From Amycolatopsis roodepoortensis (GTDB lineage Bacteria; Actinomycetota; Actinomycetes; Mycobacteriales; Pseudonocardiaceae), in the NCBI RefSeq assembly GCF_014873915.1, contig NZ_JADBEJ010000004.1, forward strand, positions 496,001 to 560,000: 64,000 bases of DNA. The letters run 5' to 3'. Positions within the stretch are counted from its first letter, which is position 1. Each line of letters begins with the position of its first letter. The notes beneath the pieces were generated by a model that worked only from the letters and a program-made list of their open reading frames with translations, had not been told where the DNA came from and ran no database searches. Below, in pieces: positions 9,732 through 23,746 of the stretch. The translations under genes and the position numbers were made by a program.

Positions 9732-12119
9732 TCACCCGGCGCAGGGCGATGCCGGTGCGCCCTCCGGGCCGGTCGCCCAGGTCGCCTTCGCCGCGTCGTC
9801 CGTGAGGTGGAAGTCCAAAGTGGTCCCTCGCGTCAACTGTTCCAACCCGACATACGCCCGCTGCGAACCGGTTCCCAGTCCTTGGACGTACTGGAGCTTC
9901 GAGCCGTCGGCGCCACGGGCCTTGATCGTGATGTCACGGCCGTTCTCCAGATGCACCACGGACTTCTCGAACCGCGGCGCGTTGAGCACGAACTGCCCCG
10001 TGCCCGGCACCGCCGGGTACAGCCCCAGCGCGCTGAAGACGTACCACGCGGACATGGTCCCGAGGTCGTCGTTCCCGGTGACACCGTTCGGCGCGTTGGT
10101 GAACAACGTGTGCGCGGCGCGGACGACGGCGGAGGTCTTCCACGGCTGCCCGGTCAGCGTGTACATCCAGGGCGAGTGCAGATCCGGCTCGTTGTTCGGG
10201 TTGTAGCGGAACTGGTTGTAGTAGTTGTACGGGCCGACGACCCATTCCTCGCGCACGGTCTTCGCGGGATCCTTGACCAGATCCCCGTAGGCGAAGAAGT
10301 CGTCGAGCCGCTTGCCGACGTTCTCCTTGCCGCCCATGCGCTCGACGAGACCGGGGACGTCCTGCTGGGTCAGCCACTGGTACTGCCACGACGTGCCCTC
10401 GTGGAAGCCGTCCTGGCTCTGCGGGGTGTACGGCTTGTCCGCGGGGCTGAACCATTCGCCGCCTTCGACCTTGGGCCGATAGAACCCGGTGAAGCCGCGG
10501 TCGGTCACCGAGGAGTCCCACAGCGTGCGGTAGCTGCGTCCCTTCTCCGCCAAGGCCTTCGCGTCGTCCTTCTTGCCGAGCCCGGCGGCCATGATGGACA
10601 GCGAGCAGTCCGCGAGCGCGTATTCCAGCGTGGCCGAAGCGCCGTGGTTCGGGTCGGTGTCCTGGCCCTTCTTCGGGAAGTCCTTGTCGTACTGGACGAA
10701 CCCGTCCTTCTGGTAGCTCGCGTTCCCCGAGCGGCCCTGGAACGGCGAGGACGCGGGCGGGATCTCGCGCGAGTTCTGCAGAAGCGCCTGGTATGCCTTG
10801 AACTCCTGACCCGACAGCGCGCCGAACCGCCACAGGTCGACCAGGAACGGGGTGACCGGATCGCCGGTCATCGTGTTCGTCTCCTGGTTCGCGTACGCCC
10901 AGCGCGGCAGCCAGCCGCCCTGGTCGTGGATGGCGAGCACGGACTTCGCGACGTCCTTCGCGCGAGCCGGCCGCAAGAGCGCGAGCAACTGGTTCTGCGT
11001 GCGATAGGTGTCCCACAACGAGAAGAACTCGTAGTACGTCCAGCCCAGCGCGCGATGGATCTTGTCGTCGAACCCGCGGTACCGCCCGTCGGCGTCGTTG
11101 CCGGTCAGCGGCTGCAGCAGCGCGTGGTAGAGCGAGGTGTAGAAGACCGTGCGGTCGTCCTTCGTCCCGCCCTTGATGTCCACTGAGGACAGTTCCTTGC
11201 GCCAGGCACGCTGGGCACCGTCGCGGACCGCGTCGAACGAACGCCCCTTCTCGGCCGCCAGGTTCAGCCGGGCACCGAAAGCGTCCACATGGGAGATCGC
11301 GGTCGTCGCGGTGACCTGCCCGCCGCCGAAGGTCAGCCAGGCGCCACGCAGGCCTTCACCGCCTGCGGACTCCTTCGAGCCCGGTGTGCCGCCCGTGGGT
11401 GACCAGGTGCCGAAGGATTTGAACGGCTTGTCGAACGTCGTGGTGAACCACGTCTTGTACGGCTTTCCGCCGCAGAACGCCTGCGACTCCACCATTCCTT
11501 CGATCGTCCGGTCCCCGACGACGCGGATCTGGCTCGCTGTCACCGGTTCCTTGTCGTTGGCCTGGCCGACGTTGACGAAAACGTTTGCGTCGCCCGATTT
11601 CGCGAAGGTGTACCGCTCGACACCGGTCCGTGTGGTCGCGGTGGTCTCCGCGTCGACGCCGCCATAACCGGTGAGCCGCACCTTGTAGTAGCCGGGCTTG
11701 CCGACCTCGCCCTCGTGCGTGTACGGCGAGGCGTACCTCTTGTGGTCGAACGTCTCGGGTTTCGTGGTGTCGAACGCCGCGCCCGGTCCGACCGCGCCGG
11801 TGGTGGGCAGGGACGACACGAGGCCGCCCTGCTCCCAGCAGCCCGCCCCGGACAGGAAGAAATGCCCGAAGCCGCGGATCGCGGTGTCGTCGTAGCGATA
11901 GCCGGCGTAATGCGAGGAAATCGGGCTGACCTGCGTCATCCCGAACGGCGCCGAGGCGCCGGGGAAGGTGTTGCCGTCGTCCTTGGTGCCGATGAAGGTG
12001 TTGACCGCGTCCACGGGGTCGCCACCGGGTGCCGCCGCCGCGACGGGCGTGAGAAGCCCGGCGGGAACGATCAGCGCGGTGAGCAACCCCGCGACGCGGG
12101 TCGAGGTGCATGCAGGCAT
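9732..12119 (-). CDS. Secreted GH92 alpha-mannosidase
   Basis: 795 residues from ATG 12119 (AGGAGG at 12131-12136). A signal peptide of about 30 residues ends near PVAAAAP. The family signatures are clear: VNTFIGT-x-x-DGNTFPGA-x-x-PFGM at the mature N-terminus, HYAGY, GHFFLSGAGC, EGTSWQYQWL, and GNDDLGTMSAWYVFSALGLYP near the C-terminus. GH92 enzymes are calcium-dependent exo-alpha-mannosidases acting on mannans or N-glycans. As an exported enzyme it would release mannose for the ABC importer encoded at 16433-19274. A GACAACGTTGTC palindrome abuts its ribosome site, so it should be controlled by the LacI protein at 14335. The exact linkage specificity cannot be read from sequence. Confidence 0.9.
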   Translation of the reverse strand: MPACTSTRVAGLLTALIVPAGLLTPVAAAAPGGDPVDAVNTFIGTKDDGNTFPGASAPFGMTQVSPISSHYAGYRYDDTAIRGFGHFFLSGAGCWEQGGLVSSLPTTGAVGPGAAFDTTKPETFDHKRYASPYTHEGEVGKPGYYKVRLTGYGGVDAETTATTRTGVERYTFAKSGDANVFVNVGQANDKEPVTASQIRVVGDRTIEGMVESQAFCGGKPYKTWFTTTFDKPFKSFGTWSPTGGTPGSKESAGGEGLRGAWLTFGGGQVTATTAISHVDAFGARLNLAAEKGRSFDAVRDGAQRAWRKELSSVDIKGGTKDDRTVFYTSLYHALLQPLTGNDADGRYRGFDDKIHRALGWTYYEFFSLWDTYRTQNQLLALLRPARAKDVAKSVLAIHDQGGWLPRWAYANQETNTMTGDPVTPFLVDLWRFGALSGQEFKAYQALLQNSREIPPASSPFQGRSGNASYQKDGFVQYDKDFPKKGQDTDPNHGASATLEYALADCSLSIMAAGLGKKDDAKALAEKGRSYRTLWDSSVTDRGFTGFYRPKVEGGEWFSPADKPYTPQSQDGFHEGTSWQYQWLTQQDVPGLVERMGGKENVGKRLDDFFAYGDLVKDPAKTVREEWVVGPYNYYNQFRYNPNNEPDLHSPWMYTLTGQPWKTSAVVRAAHTLFTNAPNGVTGNDDLGTMSAWYVFSALGLYPAVPGTGQFVLNAPRFEKSVVHLENGRDITIKARGADGSKLQYVQGLGTGSQRAYVGLEQLTRGTTLDFHLTDDAAKATWATGPEGAPASPCAG

Positions 12120-12136
12120 GGGAAAGGCCGCCTCCT

Positions 12137-12148
12137 GACAACGTTGTC
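12137..12148. promoter_or_regulatory. Probable LacI operator 1, GH92 promoter
   Basis: Perfect 12-bp palindrome GACAACGTTGTC directly upstream of the GH92 ribosome site (12131-12136), 18 bases from the start codon. The same 12-mer occurs at 14337 and 16229 and nowhere else I could find. Central CG with symmetric arms is the LacI-family pattern. Confidence 0.75.
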
Positions 12149-12224
12149 GCTGCCCGCTCACCTTCGACAAGAACCGACCATCTGGTCAAGAGGTCCGTCG
12201 AACCCTGTCCATTTCGGGACAAGC

Positions 12225-13514
12225 TCACCCGAGCGCTTCGGCCACCTCTCGCGCCGCGCGTTCGCCCGCCTCGATAGCGCCGTCGAGATAGCCGGGGTGC
12301 TCGCGGGCGGTTTCCGAACCCGCCCAGTGCAGGTGCCCGGCCGGGGTCGACGAAAGCGGCGGGAAACCGTCGGTCGCGCCCGGCGCGGGAAGCGCGGTGT
12401 AACCGCCGCCCGCGTGTTCGTCGAGGTGCCAAGCCTTTTCGTGCCAGCCCACGGGTTCTAGCACGGCGGAGCCGAGATGCGGGACCAGCGGGCGCAGCAG
12501 CGCGTCCCGGCGGGCCGCGGCGTCCAGCCCGTCGAGCCGCCGCGCCCGGGGACCGCCCACGAGCACGCACAGATGTCCGGGCCCGCCGGGAGCGGTCGTG
12601 TCGAACACCGCGTGCCCGAGGCCGTCCAGGACGACGAGCTCACCGTTCGCGCGTTCCCGCCAGAAGGGCCGCTCGTAGACCGCGATCGCCTTGTGCACGA
12701 GCCCCATGTAGGTGTTCTTCTCCAGATCGAGGCGCGGTCGCGGAAGCGTGGGCTCGTGCGAGATCCGCGCGGCGACCGGCGGCGGTACGGCGATGACCGC
12801 CTTCGCCGCCCGCAAGCGATCCGTCCCGGTCCGCACGGTGACCCCGTCGCCGTCACGGACGATCGAGGTGACCGCGGACCCGGTCCGCACCCGTGGGCCG
12901 AGTTCGGCGGCGAGACCGTCGACGAGCGCCCCCATGCTCTCGGCGAGCAGTGCCTCCTGCGCCCCGCCCGCCGTCGACAGCATGGTCCGCAATCCGCCCT
13001 GCGCGCGGATCATCCTGGTCATCGCTTCGACGGAGAACCGGTCGAGGTCGGCGGTCCACGACACGGAGGCGACAGCCTCCAGCAACCCACGCGCCTGGCG
13101 ACCCGGCACCGCGCGCAGCACCGAAGCGAGCGTCGTGCGGTTCCACCGCTTCGGCGTTCCCGTCCGGGCAAGCACGCCCGCCGCGGCCAGCGCGAGACCG
13201 GCGAGCCACAGGGCGGGCGACCAGAGCGGCACCCGCTTGCCCGCCTCGATCAATCCGGGAAGCGTCCCGGTGCGCATGGGGAACTCGGTGGCGCCGAATT
13301 CGGCCGCCAGCGCCCTGACCCGGTGATGGTCGGCCCCGATCCACTGCCCGCCGAGGTCGAGCCGGGAACCCAGCACGGTCGTCTCGCCCAGCACCCGCCC
13401 GCCGATCCGGTCCGCGGCCTCCAGCACGACGACTTCGACGCCTCGCCGGTGGAGGGCACGTGCCGCCACCAGCCCGGACAAACCAGCCCCGACGACCACG
13501 ACAGTCGTGTCCAT
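12225..13514 (-). CDS. Flavin-containing monoamine oxidase family protein
   Basis: 429 residues from ATG 13514 behind GGAGGATGGCGA. The N-terminal dinucleotide-binding motif VVGAGLSGLVAARAL, the GGRVLGETT segment and the C-terminal HWAGSETAREHPGYLDGAIEAGERAA match FAD-dependent amine oxidases. It would oxidise an amine to the aldehyde with release of ammonia and peroxide; the substrate is unknown. It lies 82 bp downstream of a TetR gene on the same strand, so that TetR protein probably controls it. Its presence between the mannosidase and the LacI gene has no obvious link to sugar use. Confidence 0.85.
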   Translation of the reverse strand: MDTTVVVVGAGLSGLVAARALHRRGVEVVVLEAADRIGGRVLGETTVLGSRLDLGGQWIGADHHRVRALAAEFGATEFPMRTGTLPGLIEAGKRVPLWSPALWLAGLALAAAGVLARTGTPKRWNRTTLASVLRAVPGRQARGLLEAVASVSWTADLDRFSVEAMTRMIRAQGGLRTMLSTAGGAQEALLAESMGALVDGLAAELGPRVRTGSAVTSIVRDGDGVTVRTGTDRLRAAKAVIAVPPPVAARISHEPTLPRPRLDLEKNTYMGLVHKAIAVYERPFWRERANGELVVLDGLGHAVFDTTAPGGPGHLCVLVGGPRARRLDGLDAAARRDALLRPLVPHLGSAVLEPVGWHEKAWHLDEHAGGGYTALPAPGATDGFPPLSSTPAGHLHWAGSETAREHPGYLDGAIEAGERAAREVAEALG

Positions 13515-13596
13515 TCGCCATCCTCCGCAATTCAGTCAGTCGTATGACTTGACCATAGGGCAGCCGGCGGCCACCCGCAACGACGCAGGTCAGAGG

Positions 13597-14202
13597 TCAG
13601 ACAGGCCGGATGTCGGCCGAGGTGACGAGCATCGCGATCACGGTGTCGAGATCGGCGCGTGCGCGCTCGTCGTCGGGTTCGCAGACGTACTGCGCGATGA
13701 GCCCGTCGACGCCGGCGAGCATGACCCTGGCGAGCCGGTCGTAGGACAGGGCGCAGTTCTCGCCCGCGTTGACGGCGGCCTCCCGGCACCAGTCGGTCAG
13801 CACCGCGACGTAACGGCGGTACTGCCAGCTCGCCATGCTTTCCTGTCCCGGCTTCCGCAGCGCGTAGTGCAGCAGTTCGCCCTGCATCAGCTGCAGCTTG
13901 ACGTGATCGGCGACCAGCTCGGTCCAGAAGCTAGTCAGGCCCTGGCGGATGGCGTGCGCCAGCCCGCGGTCGAGTTCGACCGTCCCGGTCAGCACGGTCG
14001 AGATCTCCTCGACCACGTCCTCGATCACCGCCCGCAGCAACGCCTCCTTGCTGGAGAAGACGTACTGCAGCGTGCCGAGCGGGACGCCCGCCTCGGCGGC
14101 GACCGCCCGCAAGGTCGTCGCGGCGACGCCGTCGCGCAGCATCACCTCGCGCGCGGCGGCGACGAACTGCCTGCTGCGCACCGACGCCTCGACATACGGC
14201 AT
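13597..14202 (-). CDS. TetR-family transcriptional regulator
   Basis: 201 residues from ATG 14202 with a GAGGGGAG ribosome site. The N-terminal helix-turn-helix is clear: ATTLRAVAAEAGVPLGTLQYVFSSKEALL at about residues 27-55. The C-terminal ligand domain follows the TetR_C pattern (ELVADHVKLQLMQGELLHYAL). It is probably cotranscribed with the amine oxidase downstream, suggesting it senses an amine or its oxidation product. It is divergent from the LacI gene, with 132 bp between the starts. Confidence 0.85.
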   Translation of the reverse strand: MPYVEASVRSRQFVAAAREVMLRDGVAATTLRAVAAEAGVPLGTLQYVFSSKEALLRAVIEDVVEEISTVLTGTVELDRGLAHAIRQGLTSFWTELVADHVKLQLMQGELLHYALRKPGQESMASWQYRRYVAVLTDWCREAAVNAGENCALSYDRLARVMLAGVDGLIAQYVCEPDDERARADLDTVIAMLVTSADIRPV

Positions 14203-14334
14203 TCCGCGCTCCCCTCGATCGGGACATGACCTTGCCACAGCCCCGGCACGGGTAACGGTTCGACTTCGGAAGCCGCCTCCAGGACGAACCGGGCATTGAC
14301 ATCGCCGCGTCGCTGGCGTTCAATTCCGGCCACT

Positions 14335-15384
14335 ATGACAACGTTGTCTTCCAGCGGACCGGACAACGGCCACCGCACCACCGGCCGACGGGCCACGATG
14401 AGTGACGTGGCCCGGCTCGCGGGCGTGAGCATCAAAACCGTCTCGCGAGTGGTGAACGACGAGCCCGCCGTCCATCCGGACACCGCGGAGCGCGTCATGG
14501 CGGCGATCGAGCAGCTCGGGTTCCGGCGCAACCTCGGCGCGCGGAACCTGCGGCGCGGCTCGACGACCGGGACGATCGGCCTGATCGTCGAAGACGTCGG
14601 AAACCCCTTCTACTCCGAGCTCAACCGGGCCGTCGAACGCATCGCGACCTCCTTCGGCCGCCAGGTGCTGACCGGTTCGTCGGAGGAGAACTCCGACCGC
14701 GAACGCGAACTGGTCCTGGAGTTCTGCTCCCGCCGCGTCGACGGCATCCTCGTCGTCCCCGCCGGGATGCAGCACGGCTACCTGGTCCCCGAGATGCGCG
14801 CGGGCACGCCCGTGGTGTTCCTCGACCGGCCCGCCGGCGACATCGTGGCCGACACGGTGCTGGTCGACAACATCGGCGGCACCGTCGAAGCGGTCGCCCA
14901 GCTGGCGAAACACGGCCACCGCCGGATCGCGTTCCTCGCCGACAGCCCGGACATCTTCACCGCGGGCGAACGGCTGCGCGGCTTCCGCGAAGGCTGTGTC
15001 CGCAACGGGATCCCCTACGACGAGCACCTCGTCGTGATGCGGACGCCGACCGCCGAGAGCGTCGGCGACGCGGTGAAGCGGCTGCTCACCGGGCCGAATC
15101 CGGCCACCGCCGTGATCGCGGGCAACAACCGGGTCGCCGTCCACCTGCTGCGCGCGCTGGCGCACGCGGAGCGGCGTCCCGCGATGATCAGTTTCGACGA
15201 CTTCGAGCTGGCGGATCTGCTGGATCCGCCGGTCTCCGTGATCGCGCACGACGTGAGCGCACTGGGCCGGGCGGCCGCGGAACTGCTGTTCGCCCGGGTC
15301 CAGGGAGATCAATCCGCACCGAGAAAGGTAGTTCTGCCCGTGCATCTCGTAGCCCGCGGTTCCGGGGAGGTCGCCCCTTCATGA
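14335..15384 (+). CDS. LacI-family repressor of the mannoside locus
   Basis: 349 residues from ATG 14335. The DNA-binding segment TMSDVARLAGVSIKTVSRVVNDEPAV spans about residues 21-46, followed by the hinge (GARNLRRGSTTGTIGLIV) and a periplasmic-binding-like sugar domain (GNPFYSELNRAVE, FLDRPAGDIVADTVLVDNIGG, ISFDDFELADLL). The conserved Arg-Arg-x-Thr just before the first helix favours this start over ATG 14398. The operator palindrome at 14337-14348 overlaps codons 1-5, pointing to tight autoregulation. The stop overlaps the ManA start (ATGA), so repressor, isomerase and importer form one operon. The inducer is probably a mannose-type sugar (inference). Confidence 0.9.
   Translation: MTTLSSSGPDNGHRTTGRRATMSDVARLAGVSIKTVSRVVNDEPAVHPDTAERVMAAIEQLGFRRNLGARNLRRGSTTGTIGLIVEDVGNPFYSELNRAVERIATSFGRQVLTGSSEENSDRERELVLEFCSRRVDGILVVPAGMQHGYLVPEMRAGTPVVFLDRPAGDIVADTVLVDNIGGTVEAVAQLAKHGHRRIAFLADSPDIFTAGERLRGFREGCVRNGIPYDEHLVVMRTPTAESVGDAVKRLLTGPNPATAVIAGNNRVAVHLLRALAHAERRPAMISFDDFELADLLDPPVSVIAHDVSALGRAAAELLFARVQGDQSAPRKVVLPVHLVARGSGEVAPS
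14337..14348. promoter_or_regulatory. Probable LacI operator 2, overlapping the lacI-type start codon
   Basis: Second exact copy of GACAACGTTGTC. It begins two bases inside the ATG at 14335 and would encode Met-Thr-Thr-Leu-Ser. If translation instead starts at 14398, the box lies 50-61 bases upstream, in the leader. Either position suits autorepression of the whole operon. Confidence 0.7.
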
Positions 15385-16436
15385 GCGGCCACCTCGAACC
15401 GATCCGCCTGCCGGCGAACCAGCCGCCGCAGTTCTACCGCGGCGGCGACGCCATCGCCGCGTTGCGGGGCGCCCCCTCGGAGTCCAAATTCGGGCCCGAA
15501 GACTGGGTCGGCTCGGCCACCACGATGTTCGGCCAGGAGACCAACGGCCTGACCAAGCTGCCCAGCGGCGTCTGGCTGCGCGACGCCGTCCGCGAGAACC
15601 CGTCCGCCTGGCTCGGCGCCAAGCACGTCGAGGCGCTCGGCGACTCGACCGGCCTGCTGGTGAAGCTGCTCGACGCGGGCCAGCGCCTGCCGGTGCACTT
15701 CCACCCGTCCGATTCGTTCGCCAAACGCCACTTCGACTCGCACTTCGGCAAGACCGAGGCGTGGATCGTGGTCGGCACCTACGGCGACGACCCGCGCGTC
15801 TACCCCGGCTTCAAGGAGACTGTCGACAAAGCGACGGTCAACGAATGGGCCCGCACCCAGGACGCGCCCGCCATGCTCGGAGCGCTGAACAGCGTCGCGG
15901 TCACCCCCGGCGACACGGTCTACATCCCGGCGGGCCTGCCGCACGCGATCGGCGAAGGCGTCTTCGTCGTCGAGCTCCAGCAGCCGACCGACTTCTCGCT
16001 GACCCTGGAATGGCGGGACTTCCTGGCGAACCCGGAGAAGGCGCACCTCGGCATCGGGTTCGAGACCGCCATCGAAACCCTGGACACCTCGGGCTGGGAC
16101 GAAGAGCGGCTCGGCTCGATCGTCAAACGCACCGCGGGCGACAAAGCGTCCACTGTGGACCTTCTCGCCGATGGCAGCGACGCGTTCTTCCGTGCCGACC
16201 AGCTGCGCCCCGGCCTTTCCGGTAGGTCGACAACGTTGTCACTCGATCCGTCGTTCGCGGTGCTGGTCGTCATGGACGGTTCGGGCACGCTCCGCACCGA
16301 ACACGGCGGCGAGTACGCGCTGCGCAAGGGCGAGACGTACGTGGTCCCGCACGACGCCGGTCAGTCCACTTTGGAGGGCGACGTCACCGTCATCCGCTGC
16401 CGGCCGCCCGCACCCGAGAAGAGGGAGCGATCGTGA
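15381..16436 (+). CDS. manA: Class I mannose-6-phosphate isomerase
   Basis: 351 residues; the start overlaps the repressor stop by four bases. The cupin-type zinc site is visible: LPVHFHPSDSFAK (about residues 105-118), a Glu in KTEAWIVVG, and IPAGLPHAIGEG with the third His near residue 192. This links mannose-6-phosphate to fructose-6-phosphate for glycolysis. Class I enzymes from the NCBI 'class I mannose-6-phosphate isomerase' group in sugar operons have this length. Genetic coupling to a LacI repressor and an ABC importer supports a catabolic role. A third copy of the operator lies inside the gene, around codons 283-287. A sugar kinase is needed but not encoded here. Confidence 0.82.
   Translation: MSGHLEPIRLPANQPPQFYRGGDAIAALRGAPSESKFGPEDWVGSATTMFGQETNGLTKLPSGVWLRDAVRENPSAWLGAKHVEALGDSTGLLVKLLDAGQRLPVHFHPSDSFAKRHFDSHFGKTEAWIVVGTYGDDPRVYPGFKETVDKATVNEWARTQDAPAMLGALNSVAVTPGDTVYIPAGLPHAIGEGVFVVELQQPTDFSLTLEWRDFLANPEKAHLGIGFETAIETLDTSGWDEERLGSIVKRTAGDKASTVDLLADGSDAFFRADQLRPGLSGRSTTLSLDPSFAVLVVMDGSGTLRTEHGGEYALRKGETYVVPHDAGQSTLEGDVTVIRCRPPAPEKRERS
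16229..16240. promoter_or_regulatory. Probable LacI operator 3, inside manA
   Basis: Third exact GACAACGTTGTC, within the manA coding region and 193 bases before the ABC ATPase start. It uses the same codons as the copy at the repressor start (Thr-Thr-Leu-Ser). It could act as an auxiliary operator for DNA looping or a roadblock. Confidence 0.6.
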
Positions 16437-17197
16437 GCGAACTCCTGCTCGACGCACAGAACCTGGTCAAGCGTTACGGCTCGGTGGAGGCGCTGCGAGG
16501 CGCGTCCTTCCAGGCGCGGGCCGGTGAGGTCACCGCGCTGATCGGCGACAACGGCGCCGGGAAGTCCACTTTGGTCAAATGCCTTTCCGGCGCGGAACAG
16601 CCGACGTCGGGCAGCATCCTGCTCGACGGCTCCGAGGTGGTGCTCGATTCGCCCACCACGGCACGGCGGATGGGGATCGAGACGGTGTACCAGGATCTCG
16701 CGGTCGCACCGGAACTCGACCCGGCCGCGAACCTGTTCCTGGGCAGGGAGATCCACCGCAAGGGGATCCTCGGCAAGCTCGGGATGCTGGACAAGAAGGA
16801 AATGAAACGCCAGGCCGTGGAGGAGTTCCAGCGGCTCGGCGTGACCCTGCAGAGCACCGACGTCCCGATCGGCTCGCTTTCGGGCGGACAGCGGCAAAGC
16901 GTCGCCGTCGCGCGGTCGGTCGTCTGGGCGTCGAAGGTCGTGTTCATGGACGAGCCGACGGCCGCGCTCGGCGTCGTGCAGCGCGAGCGGGTGCTCGACG
17001 TGATCAAGAAGGTGCGCGACAAGGGCATCGCCGTCGTGCTGATCAGCCACAACATGCCCGAGGTGCTGTCGGTGGCCGACCGTATCGAGGTGCTGCGCCT
17101 CGGCAAACGCGTCGCCCGGTTCACCGGCGCGGACACGAAACTGGAAGACCTGGTCGCCGCGATGACGGGCGCCCTCGTACAAGAGGAGGCGGCGTGA
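16433..17197 (+). CDS. Sugar ABC transporter ATP-binding protein (FrcA/one-domain RbsA type)
   Basis: 254 residues; ATGA... overlap with manA and GTGA overlap with the permease gene show tight coupling. Walker A GDNGAGKST (about residues 38-46), signature LSGGQRQS (about 146-153) and Walker B VVFMDEPTAALG are intact, with the switch His in ISHNM. It contains only one nucleotide-binding domain, so it should act as a homodimer like FrcA, unlike the two-domain RbsA. It powers import of a monosaccharide, probably mannose or a related hexose by context. Confidence 0.9.
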   Translation: MSELLLDAQNLVKRYGSVEALRGASFQARAGEVTALIGDNGAGKSTLVKCLSGAEQPTSGSILLDGSEVVLDSPTTARRMGIETVYQDLAVAPELDPAANLFLGREIHRKGILGKLGMLDKKEMKRQAVEEFQRLGVTLQSTDVPIGSLSGGQRQSVAVARSVVWASKVVFMDEPTAALGVVQRERVLDVIKKVRDKGIAVVLISHNMPEVLSVADRIEVLRLGKRVARFTGADTKLEDLVAAMTGALVQEEAA

Positions 17198-18255
17198 CCG
17201 TGTCCACTCCGACGAAAAACGGCCCCGAGATCCAGACCTCAGTGGACGGTGGCTTCGGCAAACGCTCGATCGGGCAGCGGCTGATCGGGGCCAACACGTT
17301 CTGGATCGCGCTGGTGCTGCTGGCGCTCATCATCGTGTTCACCGCGATCGCGCCCGCCGAGTTCGCGACGCTGTTCACCTTCCAGACGCTGCTCATCGAG
17401 ACCTCGGTGCTGCTGGTGCTCTCGGTCGGCATGACGTTCGTGATCATCACGTCCGGGATCGACCTTTCGGTCGGTTCGGTGCTGATCTTCGCGGGCATGG
17501 TGGCGGGCAAGACGATGGAGGCGCTGAGCCCGGACGGCGACGCCACCAAGGCGGGCTGGGGCGTCATCACCGCCGGGCTCGTGGCGGCCGTCGTCGCGGG
17601 CACGATCTGGGGGCTGATCAACGGCTTCCTGATCGCGGTGGCGAACATCCCCCCGCTGATCGTCACGCTCGGCACGATGGGTGCCGCGCTCGGCGCCGCG
17701 TACCTGCTGAACAACGGGTCCGACGTGCGCAGCGTGCCGACCGAGCTCAACAAGACGCTCGGCTACGGGACGTCGTTCGGCGGCGTGCCGAACCTGGTGC
17801 TGGTGGCCGTGGTGATCACGCTGATCGGCGCATGGCTGTTGCACACCACCAAATTCGGCCGCTACACCTACGCCGTCGGCTCCAACGCCGAGGGCGCGCG
17901 CCGGGCGGGCATCGGGGTGACCGCGCATCTGCTGAAGGTGTACACGCTCACCGGTTTCCTCGCCGGTGTCGCCGGTTTCCTCTCGCTGGCGTACTACGCG
18001 TCGACCACCATTTCGGCGCACACCACCGACAACCTCAACGCCATCGCCGCCACGGTGATGGGCGGGACGAGTCTCTTCGGCGGTGTCGGTTCGGTGCTGG
18101 GCACGGTGATCGGCGTGTTCATCCCGGCCGTGCTGAAGAAGGGCTTCAACATCACGCAGGTCCAGGACTTCTGGCAGATGATCGCGGTCGGCGCGGTGCT
18201 GATCGCCGCGGTCTGGTTCGACCAGCGGCGCCGTCGTCGCCGCAACTCTCGCTGA
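17194..18255 (+). CDS. Ribose/fructose-type sugar ABC transporter permease
   Basis: 353 residues from GTG 17194, overlapping the ATPase stop. About ten hydrophobic helices are visible, with the family segments GIDLSVGS, NIPPLIVTLGTM, GRYTYAVGSNAEGARRAGI (the cytoplasmic coupling loop) and VMGGTSLFGGVGSVLGT. This is the BPD_transp_2 (RbsC/FrcC) family. A hydrophilic 30-residue N-terminal tail precedes the first helix. It forms the membrane pore for the sugar delivered by the lipoprotein encoded 30 bases downstream. Confidence 0.92.
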   Translation: MTVSTPTKNGPEIQTSVDGGFGKRSIGQRLIGANTFWIALVLLALIIVFTAIAPAEFATLFTFQTLLIETSVLLVLSVGMTFVIITSGIDLSVGSVLIFAGMVAGKTMEALSPDGDATKAGWGVITAGLVAAVVAGTIWGLINGFLIAVANIPPLIVTLGTMGAALGAAYLLNNGSDVRSVPTELNKTLGYGTSFGGVPNLVLVAVVITLIGAWLLHTTKFGRYTYAVGSNAEGARRAGIGVTAHLLKVYTLTGFLAGVAGFLSLAYYASTTISAHTTDNLNAIAATVMGGTSLFGGVGSVLGTVIGVFIPAVLKKGFNITQVQDFWQMIAVGAVLIAAVWFDQRRRRRRNSR

Positions 18256-18284
18256 TTCCCTACGCACAAAGAGGTGCTATCCCC

Positions 18285-19274
18285 ATGAAGAAGACCCTGC
18301 TCGCCGCCGGTGCCGCCGTTTCCGCGGCCCTCCTGCTCACCGCGTGCGGCGGTGGCACCGTCGGCGAGGCGCCGTCGGGCGACTCCGGCGCCAAGACCAA
18401 CAACAAGAAGCTCTCGCTCATCCCGGGCGTGCAGGCCGAGCCGTTCTACATCTCGATGCAGTGCGGCGCCGAGGCCGAGGCCAAGAAAGCGGGCTACGAG
18501 CTCACCACGCAGGCGCCGCAGAAGTTCGACGCGGCCATGCAGACCCAGCTGGTCAACGCGCTGGGCTCCAACCCGCCCGCCGCGCTGCTCATCGCGCCGA
18601 CCGACGCGCAGGCGATGCTCGCGCCGATCCAGCAGGTCAAGAACCGCGGCTCGAAGATCATCGAGGTCGACACCGCGCTGAAGGACACCAGTGTCGCGGA
18701 GTCGTCCATCTCGTCGGACAACGCCGAGGGCGGCAAGCTCGCCGCGAAGACCATGGCGGAACTGGCCGCGGGCAAGACCGGCTCGGTGCTGGTGCTCGAC
18801 ACCATCGCCGGCACCTCGACCACGAACACCCGCGCGAAGGGCTTCGAGGACGAGCTGAAGAACCACCCGAACCTGAAGTCGGCGGGCGTGCAGTTCACCC
18901 AGAACGAGCCCGACCAGGCCGCGTCCAAGGTGACCGCCGCGCTGGCGTCGACCCCGGACCTGATCGGCATCTTCGCGACCAACCTCAACACCGGTGAGGG
19001 CGCCGCGACCGGCCTGCGGAACGCGGGCAAGATCGGCACGGTCAACCTTGTCGGCTTCGACGCTTCGCCGTCGGAGGTCGAGGGCCTGAAGAAGGGCGAG
19101 TACCAGGCCCTCATCGCGCAGGACCCGGCCGCCATCGGGCAGCAGGGTGTGCAGCAGGCCATCGCGGCGCTCGAGGGCAAGCCGGTGACCCGGAACCTGA
19201 CCGCTTCGCTGCACTCGATCACCAAGGCGAACATGGACGCGAACGCTCAGTACTTCTACAAGCAGAGCTGCTGA
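18285..19274 (+). CDS. Sugar-binding lipoprotein of the ABC importer
   Basis: 329 residues from ATG 18285. The signal peptide ends in LLLTAC with the lipid-modified Cys at residue 21, followed by a Gly/Ser/Thr linker. The rest is a Peripla_BP_4 domain of the RbsB/FrcB type (LIPGVQAEPFYISMQCGAEAEA, IAPTDAQAMLAPIQQ, GIFATNLNTGEGAATGL, VGFDASPSEVEGL). It binds the sugar outside the membrane and hands it to the permease. It is the last gene of the operon; a hairpin begins five bases after the stop. Confidence 0.92.
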   Translation: MKKTLLAAGAAVSAALLLTACGGGTVGEAPSGDSGAKTNNKKLSLIPGVQAEPFYISMQCGAEAEAKKAGYELTTQAPQKFDAAMQTQLVNALGSNPPAALLIAPTDAQAMLAPIQQVKNRGSKIIEVDTALKDTSVAESSISSDNAEGGKLAAKTMAELAAGKTGSVLVLDTIAGTSTTNTRAKGFEDELKNHPNLKSAGVQFTQNEPDQAASKVTAALASTPDLIGIFATNLNTGEGAATGLRNAGKIGTVNLVGFDASPSEVEGLKKGEYQALIAQDPAAIGQQGVQQAIAALEGKPVTRNLTASLHSITKANMDANAQYFYKQSC

Positions 19275-19855: not shown

Positions 19856-20902
19856 ATGAGCACCCGTCTGCCCTGGCGTCCCGCCGCGAGCGTCGACCCG
19901 GTACCGGTGCTCGTCGCCGCCCAGCGGGTCTCGGACGATCTCATGGACGGCCTGGCGGGACCCCGCGCCCGTCAGGCGGCGCATGGCCTCCGGCGGCTGT
20001 TCGGAGTCGCCGGGCTCGGTCTCGCCGACCTGTCCGGCTCGCTCGTCTGGTCCGGCCGTCCGGCGGCGGACGACGTCGTCGCCTCCGCGCTCGACGAGGT
20101 CCTCCACTCCGAGACGCCGGTGTCCGAACCCGGGCTGTGGGCGCTGCCGCTCCACGTCCACGACGAACTGGCCGGGGTCCTCCTGGTCACCGAAGGCAAG
20201 AACGCCGTCGCCCGCCAGGCCGCCGAACTCGTCGTCCACGCGCTCGAACGCGGCAGGCTGGAGGCCTCCGCCGAGCAGGCCGCGGAGGCCGAGTTGCGCG
20301 CGCTGCGTGCCGAGATCTCGCCGCATTTCGTCTACAACGCGCTCACCGTGATCTCCTCACTGGTCCGCTCCGACCCGGATCGCGCCCGCGACCTGATGCT
20401 CGACTTCGCCGAGTACACGCGCTACAGCCTCGCCCGGCACGGCGAGTACACGATGGTCGCCGAGGAGTTCCGCGCCATCGAGACGTATCTGGCCTTGCAG
20501 CGCGCGGTGCTCGGTGAGCGGCTGCGGGTGCAGGTGCGTGTCGCGCCGGAGGTGCTGGCCGTCGCGGTGCCGTACCTCGTGCTGGAACCGCTGGTGGAGA
20601 ACGCGATCCGGCACGGGATCGAGCCACGCGCCGAGGCGGGGTTCATCCAGGTTCAGGGAATGGCGGAAGGGAACGACTGCGTGATCAGCGTCGAGGACGA
20701 CGGTGTCGGCATGGACCCCGCCCGCGCGGCGGCGATCCTGGCCGGGCACGGCGACGACGGCGGCGTCGGACTGGCCAATGTGGACAGAAGGCTGCGCAGC
20801 GTCTACGGGCCGTGGTACGGCCTCACGGTCGAGACCGAGACCGGCGCGGGCACCAGGGTCGTGGTGCGCGTGCCCCGATTCCAGCCGGGGGTGCTGCCGT
20901 GA
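19856..20902 (+). CDS. Soluble LytS-type sensor histidine kinase
   Basis: 348 residues from ATG 19856 with GGAGGAGG just upstream. The C-terminal half is the His_kinase/HATPase pair: LRAEISPHFVYNAL, with the phospho-acceptor His at 157, YLVLEPLVENAIRHGIEP (N box), and VEDDGVGM plus GGVGLANVDRRL (G boxes). The N-terminal 130 residues resemble a GAF-like sensor and contain no transmembrane helix, so it probably senses an internal metabolite. It overlaps the LytTR regulator gene by four bases and heads an operon with two solute symporters. Confidence 0.9.
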   Translation: MSTRLPWRPAASVDPVPVLVAAQRVSDDLMDGLAGPRARQAAHGLRRLFGVAGLGLADLSGSLVWSGRPAADDVVASALDEVLHSETPVSEPGLWALPLHVHDELAGVLLVTEGKNAVARQAAELVVHALERGRLEASAEQAAEAELRALRAEISPHFVYNALTVISSLVRSDPDRARDLMLDFAEYTRYSLARHGEYTMVAEEFRAIETYLALQRAVLGERLRVQVRVAPEVLAVAVPYLVLEPLVENAIRHGIEPRAEAGFIQVQGMAEGNDCVISVEDDGVGMDPARAAAILAGHGDDGGVGLANVDRRLRSVYGPWYGLTVETETGAGTRVVVRVPRFQPGVLP

Positions 20903-21669
20903 CGAACGGGCTGCGGGTGCTGGCGGTCGACGACGTCCCGCCCGCCCTCGACGAGCTGTGCAGCCTGCTGCGCGAGGCACCGGAGGTCGCCGAGGTGGTC
21001 GCCGCCGGTGACGCCCTGAACGCGCTCAAGCTGTTGCAGGGTAGTCATTTCGACGCCGTCTTCCTCGACATCTCCATGCCGGGCCTCGACGGGCTCGAGC
21101 TCGCCTCGCTGCTGGCGCGGCTCAGCGAACCGCCGGTGATCGTGTTCGTCACCGCGCACGACGGGCACGCCGTGGCCGCGTACGGTATCGGCGCGGTCGA
21201 CTACCTGCTCAAACCGGTCCGGGCGGAACGGCTGTCCGCCGCACTGTCCAAAGTGGTCCGCATGGCGGGCAACCAGCCCGACGAGCCGAAGCCCGCGCCG
21301 GACGCGATGTCCGCGCTGCCGGTGGAATCCGGCGGGCGCACCCGGTACGTCCGCCGCGACGACGTCCAGTTCGTCGAGGCGCACGGCGACTACGTCCGGC
21401 TGCACACGAAATCCGGCGTCCACGTCACGCGGATGCCCATCTCCCGGCTCGAAGAGTATTGGGAGGGAACGGGATTCACCCGCGTGCACCGGGGTTTCCT
21501 GCTCGCCGTGGACGCGGTGCTCGAACTGCGCAGCGACACCACCGGCGGGCTGCTGGCACATACGGAAGCGGGTGACGTGCCGGTGAGCCGCCGCCACGCG
21601 CGCGATCTGCGCGACCGGCTGCTCGCCGCCGCGCAACGTGGCGAACTGGGCCGGGGAAGCCGGCCGTGA
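20899..21669 (+). CDS. LytTR-family response regulator
   Basis: 256 residues from GTG 20899. The receiver domain carries the acidic pair AVDDVPPA near residue 9, the phospho-acceptor Asp57 in VFLDISMPG, and Lys in LLKPV near residue 113. A linker leads to a LytTR DNA-binding domain (RRDDVQFVEAHGDYVRLHT, FTRVHRGFLLAVDAVLEL, VPVSRRHARDLRDRL). It is the cognate partner of the upstream kinase and probably activates the symporter genes that follow, as BtsR/YpdB-type systems do for carboxylate uptake. Confidence 0.92.
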   Translation: MTNGLRVLAVDDVPPALDELCSLLREAPEVAEVVAAGDALNALKLLQGSHFDAVFLDISMPGLDGLELASLLARLSEPPVIVFVTAHDGHAVAAYGIGAVDYLLKPVRAERLSAALSKVVRMAGNQPDEPKPAPDAMSALPVESGGRTRYVRRDDVQFVEAHGDYVRLHTKSGVHVTRMPISRLEEYWEGTGFTRVHRGFLLAVDAVLELRSDTTGGLLAHTEAGDVPVSRRHARDLRDRLLAAAQRGELGRGSRP

Positions 21670-22013
21670 GCCGCGTCAAACGGGTGGCCGTCACCAGTCC
21701 GCAGACCCGGCTCGCGCATTCGCGGCGCCGTTCACGCGGGCGCTGGCGCGTCCCCCGGCTGGCCGCGGGCGACGCCGAACGCGCGGACGCCCTGTACCGG
21801 GCCCAGCGCCGTCGCGGGCTCCCCGCCCTGGTCGGGATGTTCGGGCTGGTCTTCGGGCTCCCGCTCGTGTTCGGCGTGTTCCCCGGGCTGGATTCGGTGC
21901 GGCTGCTGGGGATCCCGCTGTCCTGGCTGATGATCGCGATCCTCCCGTACCCGGCGATGGCGCTGCTGTCGTGGTGGCAGCTGCGCCGGGCGGAAAAGAT
22001 CGAGGACGAGTAG
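21666..22013 (+). CDS. Small two-helix membrane protein coupled to symporter
   Basis: 115 residues from GTG 21666, overlapping the regulator stop by four bases and the symporter start by one. A basic N-terminal 50 residues is followed by two hydrophobic helices (about 55-73 and 80-102) and a charged end. The layout is like the DUF485-type protein that precedes ActP in this same cluster, though sequence similarity is weak. It is probably an accessory subunit of the following symporter (inference). Confidence 0.6.
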   Translation: MSRVKRVAVTSPQTRLAHSRRRSRGRWRVPRLAAGDAERADALYRAQRRRGLPALVGMFGLVFGLPLVFGVFPGLDSVRLLGIPLSWLMIAILPYPAMALLSWWQLRRAEKIEDE

Positions 22014-23746
22014 TGGTCACGGCGCTCTCGGTGGCCCCCGTCGTGCTGGTCACCCTGCTGATCGGGTTGCGCGGGGTCGCGGCCATGCGCACGACGTCGG
22101 ATTTCCTCGTCGCCTCGCGCCGGATCTCGCCACTGGTCAACTCCGCCGCGGTCTCCGGCGAATACCTGTCCGCGGCTTCGTTCCTCGGCGTGGCGGGGCT
22201 GGTGGTGAAGGACGGGATCGGCGCGCTCTGGTATCCGGTCGGCTTCACCGCCGGATACATCGCGATGCTGGTGCTCGTGGCGGCGCCGATGCGGCGCTCC
22301 GGCGCCCTCACCGTCCCGGACTTCGCCGAAGCGCGGCTCGCCTCCCCCGCCCTGCGCCGTCTCGCCGCCGTCGTCGTCCTCGTGATCGGAACCCTTTACC
22401 TGGTCCCGCAATTCCGCACCGCGGGGCTGGTGCTGACCGCCGTCGGTGGTACGCCGTACTGGGTCGGCGTCGTCATCGCGGGCACCGCCGTCAGCGCGAC
22501 ATTGGCGCTCGGCGGGATGCGCGCGGCGACCTACGTCCAGGCCTTCCAGTTCGTGCTGAAACTGTTGCTGTTCATCGTTCCCGCGATCTGGCTGGTCTCC
22601 CAGGTCTCCCCGGAGCAGCGATCGGCTTCGGTGCACCCGGTGGAATTCACCCACTTCGCCCGCGACACCAAGCTGTCCTTCGAGATCGACGTGACGCTGA
22701 CCCTGCGCGAGCCGACCACCCTGCTCACACCGGAAAAACACGTCGTGCCACCGGGTGAGCTGGTCGCCAGGAGCGGCGAGACCCTGGAATTCGCCGAGGG
22801 CACCCCGGTTCCGGCCGTCCGGGGCGGCGCCCCGCTCGGCGGGCCGGACTGGCAACGGCCACTGCTCGACCTCGGCGATCAGGGTTATCCGCTGCTCGGC
22901 ACCTGGGCGATCCTGATCGCCACCATGCTCGGCACCATGGGCCTGCCGCACGTCCTGATGCGCTTCCACACCAGCCCGGACGGCCGCGCCGCCCGCCGGA
23001 CCGCGGCGATCACCGTCGCCCTGCTCGGCGTCTTCTACCTGTTCCCAGGGGTTTACGGCGTCTTCGGCCGCGTGCTGGTGCCGGAGCTGTACGTCTCCGG
23101 CGCGACGGACACGGTCGTCGTCGCGCTGCCGGCGCAGATCGACGACGGCTGGGCGGGCTCGTTGTTCACCGGATTGCTGACGGCGGGCGCGTTCGCCGCG
23201 TTCCTGGCGACGTCGCTCGGGCTGCTGCTGGTGATCTCCGGCGCGGTCGCGCACGACCTGGCGCCCGGCGGCCTGCGAAGACTGCGCTGGTCGGTGCTCG
23301 GGGCGGCGGCGGTGATGGTCCTGCTCGCGCTGCCGTCGGCCAGATTGGACGCGGGCGTCCTCGTCACCTGGGGTTTCACCGTGGCCGCGTCCACTTTCTG
23401 CCCGTTGCTGGTGCTCGGCATCTGGTGGAACCGGCTCACCGCCGCGGGCGCGATCAGCGGTGTCCTCGCCGGGCTCGTCGCGTCTTCGGGCTCGATCCTC
23501 GTGGCCCTGTTCGTCCCCAGCCTGAGCGGCCTGCCCGCGATCCTCGTGTCGCAGCCCGCGCCGTGGTCGGTTCCGCTGGCATTCGGAGTAATGATCGTGG
23601 TTTCCTTGCGGGGCAGGCCTCCCGCCTGGTCGACGGCCGCGATGCTGAGGCTGCACTTGGACGATCGCACAGCCGAAACCCCTTCGTCGTGGTCGGACCA
23701 CCGTTCGTCGACCGTTCGTCGTCTCGGCAGACGTTTGAACCGCTGA
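22013..23746 (+). CDS. Sodium:solute symporter (ActP-like)
   Basis: 577 residues from GTG 22013, which overlaps the upstream stop by one base. Twelve or so hydrophobic helices; SSS-family landmarks include TTSDFLVASRRISPLVNSAAVSGEYLSAASFLG, TMLGTMGLPHVLMRF and WGFTVAASTFCPLLVLGIWW. Compared with the ActP-like protein encoded at 24152, it has an extra polar loop of about 50 residues after the helix ending WLVSQV (around residues 200-290). It probably imports a small carboxylate with sodium. The tail is basic. Confidence 0.85.
   Translation: MVTALSVAPVVLVTLLIGLRGVAAMRTTSDFLVASRRISPLVNSAAVSGEYLSAASFLGVAGLVVKDGIGALWYPVGFTAGYIAMLVLVAAPMRRSGALTVPDFAEARLASPALRRLAAVVVLVIGTLYLVPQFRTAGLVLTAVGGTPYWVGVVIAGTAVSATLALGGMRAATYVQAFQFVLKLLLFIVPAIWLVSQVSPEQRSASVHPVEFTHFARDTKLSFEIDVTLTLREPTTLLTPEKHVVPPGELVARSGETLEFAEGTPVPAVRGGAPLGGPDWQRPLLDLGDQGYPLLGTWAILIATMLGTMGLPHVLMRFHTSPDGRAARRTAAITVALLGVFYLFPGVYGVFGRVLVPELYVSGATDTVVVALPAQIDDGWAGSLFTGLLTAGAFAAFLATSLGLLLVISGAVAHDLAPGGLRRLRWSVLGAAAVMVLLALPSARLDAGVLVTWGFTVAASTFCPLLVLGIWWNRLTAAGAISGVLAGLVASSGSILVALFVPSLSGLPAILVSQPAPWSVPLAFGVMIVVSLRGRPPAWSTAAMLRLHLDDRTAETPSSWSDHRSSTVRRLGRRLNR

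Follow-up and report, generated by a model that had tools for sequence, protein, structure and literature searches.

Why should one short palindrome be written three times into a mannoside locus, once ahead of a ribosome-binding site, once over a start codon, and once deep inside a gene? The locus lies in a 64,000-nucleotide stretch of the Amycolatopsis roodepoortensis genome (assembly GCF_014873915.1, contig NZ_JADBEJ010000004.1, positions 496,001 to 560,000 of the forward strand), which is referred to here as the window and whose coordinates are used throughout. A scan of the window finds exact copies of the 12-bp perfect palindrome GACAACGTTGTC, which has CG at its center, at 12137-12148, 14337-14348, and 16229-16240. 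Based on the positions of these copies and their conservation in relatives, we conclude that a LacI-family protein very probably regulates its own gene, together with mannoside genes, through GACAACGTTGTC as operator. The protein of 14335-15384 would repress its own operon (lacI, manA, and an ATP-binding cassette [ABC] importer) and the divergent GH92 gene. At lacI, bound repressor would cover the transcription start, with the opening codons of a near-leaderless message formed by the operator; at GH92, it would sit just ahead of the ribosome site; and at the manA copy, 1.9 kb into the operon, it would be a barrier that halts RNA polymerase ahead of the importer genes, as a second lock. A mannose-derived sugar would release the repressor. 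We infer binding by the protein, repression, roadblock action, and the inducer alike from sequence comparisons. This explanation as a whole, regulon and elongation barrier together, we consider probable, while the roadblock step taken by itself is put forward tentatively, at slightly less than an even chance. The features concerned are as follows.

9732-12119, minus strand: GH92 alpha-mannosidase-family gene (PF07971, E 1.5e-143; PF17678; TIGR01180 above cut-off)
12137-12148, no strand: operator copy before GH92, next to the Shine-Dalgarno sequence (palindrome scan; clade conservation)
14296-14324, plus strand: predicted lacI promoter (TTGACA at 14296-14301, 17-nt spacer, TTCAAT at 14319-14324)
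14335-15384, plus strand: LacI-family repressor gene, protein start MTTLS (PF00356, E 4.9e-18; PF13377)
14337-14348, no strand: operator copy on the lacI start codon and first codons (exact in 80/80 Amycolatopsis genomes)
15381-16436, plus strand: manA, mannose-6-phosphate isomerase-like (PF21621 above cut-off; TIGR00218, E 1.3e-20, under the curated cut-off)
16229-16240, no strand: operator copy within manA, read xxG ACA ACG TTG TCa (TTLS) (in 50/80 Amycolatopsis manA genes)
16433-19274, plus strand: ribose-type ABC importer (PF00005, PF02653, PF13407), consisting of ATPase (16433-17197), permease (17194-18255), and substrate-binding protein (18282-19274) genes

On the plus strand, lacI overlaps manA, manA the ATPase gene, and the ATPase gene the permease gene, in each case at the ends. 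The sequence-only reading of this DNA had reported the 12-mer at these three places and nowhere else in the window, and had expected any such 12-mer far less than once per 64 kb. The observation holds, and more strongly than was claimed: the whole genome (9,113,087 bases in 8 contigs) has only these three exact copies, all inside the 4.1 kb of the locus. The genome-wide scan with one mismatch that had been proposed finds 29 further places, which makes 32 within one mismatch compared with 8 for a control pattern, the 12-mer read backwards, which has no exact copy in the genome. A random scatter of the operator is ruled out by the confinement of exact copies to the locus. Within the window, there are 9 matches at up to two mismatches, whereas shuffles lead one to expect 2.65 and the largest shuffle value was 6. 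Across a genus comparison of 80 Amycolatopsis genomes (the LacI-protein relatives that carry names are Amycolatopsis species), there are 421 exact copies versus 14 of the backwards control.

Identity among the three copies extends over 12 bp only, with flanking bases t/g, t/t, and c/a, and in all three the dyad symmetry ends there; the operators in a survey of LacI-family regulators that includes ManR groups for mannose and mannosides are, in the passages of the survey that describe them, 16 to 22 nt long (Ravcheev et al. 2014, PMC4052901). Text-string and topic searches of the literature, which would miss motifs in figures and supplements, did not find the operator GACAACGTTGTC reported, and the 14-mer TGACAACGTTGTCA had no text match. 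The text matches to the 12-mer concerned Streptococcus and E. coli topics, judged by title and abstract start, and the match to the 10-mer together with LacI concerned insect taste.

The protein of 14335-15384 belongs to the LacI family by PF00356 and PF13377, both above cut-off, and its closest solved chains are of the CcpA, RbsR, PurR, and LacI types; the three exact copies provide the even palindromic operator with central CG that goes with this family. A different regulator, such as a LacI paralogue, could bind the sites instead. The genome encodes 17 LacI-type helix-turn-helix domains (HTHs), and one paralogue, L211 (VKTVSN), has TACAACGTTGTA upstream. However, IKTVSR is read only in the protein of 14335-15384 and in none of the 16 paralogues, and the upstream stretches examined at those 16 match the operator at best with 2 mismatches. 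Moreover, the 12-mer marks the start of lacI itself in 80/80 genus loci and in 36 of 40 loci from other GTDB genera of the same family, which makes control by another protein very unlikely. L211, with its own related palindrome, is a natural comparison for operator specificity.

The second copy starts on the G of the lacI ATG (14335-14337). In all 80 genus genomes, this ATG is in frame with the HTH, at a distance that varies in multiples of three, and the protein starts MTTLS. TTGACA is present upstream of lacI in 80/80 and TTGACA-N17/18-TNCAAT in 77/80, and the -10 element is followed by a conserved CA(C/T)T and then ATGACAACGTTGTC. The -10 spacing permits a leader of ~0 to 3 nt, and no other start fits the in-frame ATG in 80/80. 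Given this spacing, the lacI promoter would place the transcription start on the ATG or just ahead of it, yielding a near-leaderless message, and the operator would cover both the transcription start and the first lacI codons. Among the 36 family loci with an exact site near the lacI start (4 lack it), the site goes with an in-frame ATG in 34, a GTG in 1, and is off-frame in 1. Other clades of the genus have GACAACCTTGTC, which differs from the operator by one mismatch, within 450 nt upstream of the lacI copy (60/80 genomes). A comparable arrangement is the leaderless, repressor-first acuR-acuI-dddL operon of Rhodobacter sphaeroides, where, in the portion of that report dealing with the operon, the repressor gene also stands first in its own operon with the operator at the promoter (PMC3017554). 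It differs in having a TetR-family repressor with acrylate as co-inducer, and the leaderless start was mapped there, whereas here it is predicted.

At the divergent GH92 gene, the first copy directly adjoins the AGGAGG at 12131-12136 (minus strand), which lies ahead of the GH92 ATG (12119-12117). The placements described in the sequence-only reading (beside the GH92 ribosome site, over the lacI start codon, and inside manA) thus agree with the details of the sequence. The GH92 copy and four flanking bases on each side are identical in 18 of the 19 genomes of the window clade; in the 19th, the fetched locus gave no GH92 match. In 17 genomes (G000 to G016), there are 69 exact copies: 17 at lacI, 8 in manA, 19 before GH92, and 25 others. 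This means that, of the 44 that lie neither at lacI nor in manA, 19 have a GH92 catalytic domain 500 to 1400 nt downstream, compared with 0.02 expected (based on 75 GH92 matches). Of 40 such copies fetched from 9 genomes, around which 30 neighbor proteins were scanned, 15 have a GH92 gene at the copy. The excess of copies before GH92 domains ties the operator to mannosides, and the operator stands before mannoside or mannose genes at GH92, at the lacI-manA operon, and at these 19/44 copies. The claim of a LacI regulon in a mannoside locus therefore gains comparative support, drawn from the copies at the lacI start, in manA, at GH92, and in the epimerase-family gene described below. Farther upstream of the GH92 operator, at 12149-12225, 18 genomes share two further inverted repeats in largely unchanged form, TGTCC...GGACA and GACC....GGTC, to which other regulators may bind.

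The third copy begins with the final base of manA codon 283. It is present in 50 of 80 genus manA genes and is read ACA ACG TTG TCA in 50/50. Outside the site, ACA encodes only 28 of 2,112 Thr residues in these manA genes, TTG 100 of 2,637 Leu residues, and TCA 20 of 1,575 Ser residues; thus, three of the four codons are rare ones. Nowhere else in manA do as many consecutive codons stay invariant as in these four (49 rows, 341 gap-free columns; L115, which MAFFT placed wrongly at the site, was realigned by its motif for the codon table and excluded from the invariance count), and their neighbors are freely varying codons and a stretch with insertions and deletions. On a 92-row tree made with the site columns removed, presence of the site needs two changes, for which a single gain and a single loss, the latter in a 17-row clade, are the best reading. 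(G023 is split over two contigs, with L068 counted for lacI and L125 for manA, and both were omitted from the tree.) No consistent replacement site was found in that clade at up to one mismatch. One- and two-mismatch copies are found after the permease gene in L046, L056, L073, and L128.

Could this copy have arisen by chance, or as a side effect of encoding the peptide TTLS? Certain other genes do have exact copies that seem coincidental: those of L167, L174, and L187 lie in orthologous genes, presumably with phosphoesterase-like sequence, are read DNVV in common codons, and are probably coincidental. In manA, however, the same three rare codons recur in 50/50 genes beside freely varying ones, and the trait needs just two changes on the tree. 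TTLS is found at the site position in 0/30 manA genes that lack the operator, and TTLS written in other codons occurs there in 0/80. In addition, among 10 exact Lentzea loci in which the 12-mer falls in a permease gene, 9 read TTLS while one, L226, has the same letters and reads DNVV, so that the letters are kept while the peptide changes. On the codons and this difference of frame, we reject an origin by chance or from the peptide, which we regard as hardly credible. On this comparative evidence, the manA copy is a selected second operator and no accident.

A selected operator within manA might serve an internal promoter for the importer genes, and it lies 193 bp before the first of these, which overlaps the end of manA. 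However, when sigma-70-like elements (the only kind scored) were sought from -50 to +5, none of the 50 manA copies reached 8 of 12 matches, which is like the controls, while lacI did so in 80/80. The best scores (out of 12) average 5.2 at the manA copy, 5.6 in the control windows, and 10.0 at lacI. An internal promoter is thus an unlikely explanation.

The lac operator inside E. coli lacZ is known as O2. The manA copy could be an auxiliary operator in the same sense, raising the local concentration of repressor or looping to the lacI and GH92 operators. The LacI site deep in lacZ is an experimentally shown precedent, as the survey presents it (PMC4052901), and the manA site persists in four relatives with the importer mostly or wholly lost. 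On the other hand, the repressor aligns to lac repressor residues 4 to 328 of 360, and the alignment ends at residue 343 of its own 349; the protein stops 6 residues later, with no counterpart of the C-terminal tetramer tail of lac-type looping repressors. The spacings between the manA and lacI copies, 1874 to 1907 bp, also fit no single helical phase. We regard an auxiliary role as possible, though rather doubtful. Because the site is inside the transcript, has no promoter, and belongs to a protein without the tetramer tail, we favor a block to elongation over looping, although without certainty.

Several observations weigh against the proposed regulon and roadblock. Among the copies away from lacI and manA in the 17 genomes, 25/44 are not before GH92; two other GH92 genes of the same genome have no good site; and in two Lentzea genomes, 10 copies outside the locus were examined and none precedes a GH92 gene. 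The manA copy is missing from 30/80 genus genomes. Conversely, it persists where the importer is lost or fragmentary: in L058, L060, L088, and L108, the importer is absent or present as a fragment only, and lacI, manA, and all three operator copies are still exact. A pure importer lock fails to explain a manA copy that is kept without a full importer, unless the losses are recent. Finally, the roadblock step rests on exclusion.

The operator is also found within the codons of other genes. In an epimerase-family gene (PF07221, a family that includes mannose isomerases), the 12-mer lies ~95 codons in and is read TTLS as ACA ACG TTG TC(A/G) in 12 of 29 orthologues, with other residues at the site in the remaining 17. 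(The 29 come from 33 matches, 4 of which were excluded as 67 to 69% paralogues; the window's genome has no orthologue.) In Lentzea, the permease gene of the operon holds a copy within its first codons. This copy is exact in 14 of 18 loci from named Lentzea, carries one mismatch in 2, and is absent in 2. This second copy is 2843 to 2853 bp from the lacI copy in 10 of 11 genomes among the matches listed (11 of 16 Lentzea genomes, all but G129, G214, G263, G273, and G281); G198 has no exact second copy and has one with one mismatch. Among the 40 family loci, the Lentzea locus is the only one whose operon contains an additional exact copy farther downstream. Based on these cases, the operator may on at least three separate occasions have become part of the coding sequence of a target gene (manA and the epimerase-family gene in Amycolatopsis, and the permease gene in Lentzea), at manA without a promoter, so that one repressor would control both initiation and elongation in the same sugar regulon. 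We consider this general proposal plausible and hold it more loosely than the roadblock itself. In two Lentzea, L237 and L240, an exact copy inside a GH92 gene is read DNVV in common codons, and this may be either a coincidental match or a further intragenic operator.

Other features of the locus vary among relatives. In the window, two genes, one of the TetR family and one for a flavin amine oxidase, stand between GH92 and lacI (12225-14238), an arrangement found only in the window, L059, and L060, and the operator copies flanking the inserted genes remain exact in all three. The distance between the GH92 and lacI copies is 185 to 554 bp in 15 of 18 window-clade genomes and 2199 to 2221 bp in the 3 with the extra genes. 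The importer ATPase (16433-17197) is a single ABC domain of 254 amino acids that matches only the first half of two-domain sugar ATPase models. After the importer, 19856-23746 holds a histidine kinase gene (profile match), followed by frames that look by eye response-regulator-like and then membrane-transporter-like.

Compared with the sugar regulators described in the survey, this system is typical in its HTH and sugar-binding core, its even central-CG palindrome, its predicted autoregulation, and its adjacent transporter and glycosidase genes. It is unlike the survey's typical sites, which mostly lie 30 to 140 bp upstream of start codons, with <1% in coding regions, in that two of three copies here are within coding sequence (PMC4052901). 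In this respect, it resembles the intragenic sites named there, the lacZ operator and the PurR site in purB, where a LacI-family operator likewise lies within the coding sequence of its own target. It differs from them in its distance from the promoter copy (1.9 kb, or 2.84 to 2.85 kb in Lentzea) and in having three different host genes, and from the lac repressor in lacking the tetramer tail. Beyond the sequence-only reading, the comparisons add the near-leaderless lacI promoter, the codon-level conservation in manA, and the intragenic copies in other genes and in another genus.

Intragenic repressor sites rest on few examples, lacZ and purB in the survey's account. The present case provides a natural test of what such a site does, through clades that have or lack the site, synonymous codons, and three different host genes. 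In much of one actinobacterial family, mannoside genes can be predicted from the operator, which also points to a compact, near-leaderless promoter in Amycolatopsis that is probably sugar inducible. If operators have indeed been written repeatedly into codons, then intragenic operators would be no rare leftovers but a design that recurs and is open to evolution.

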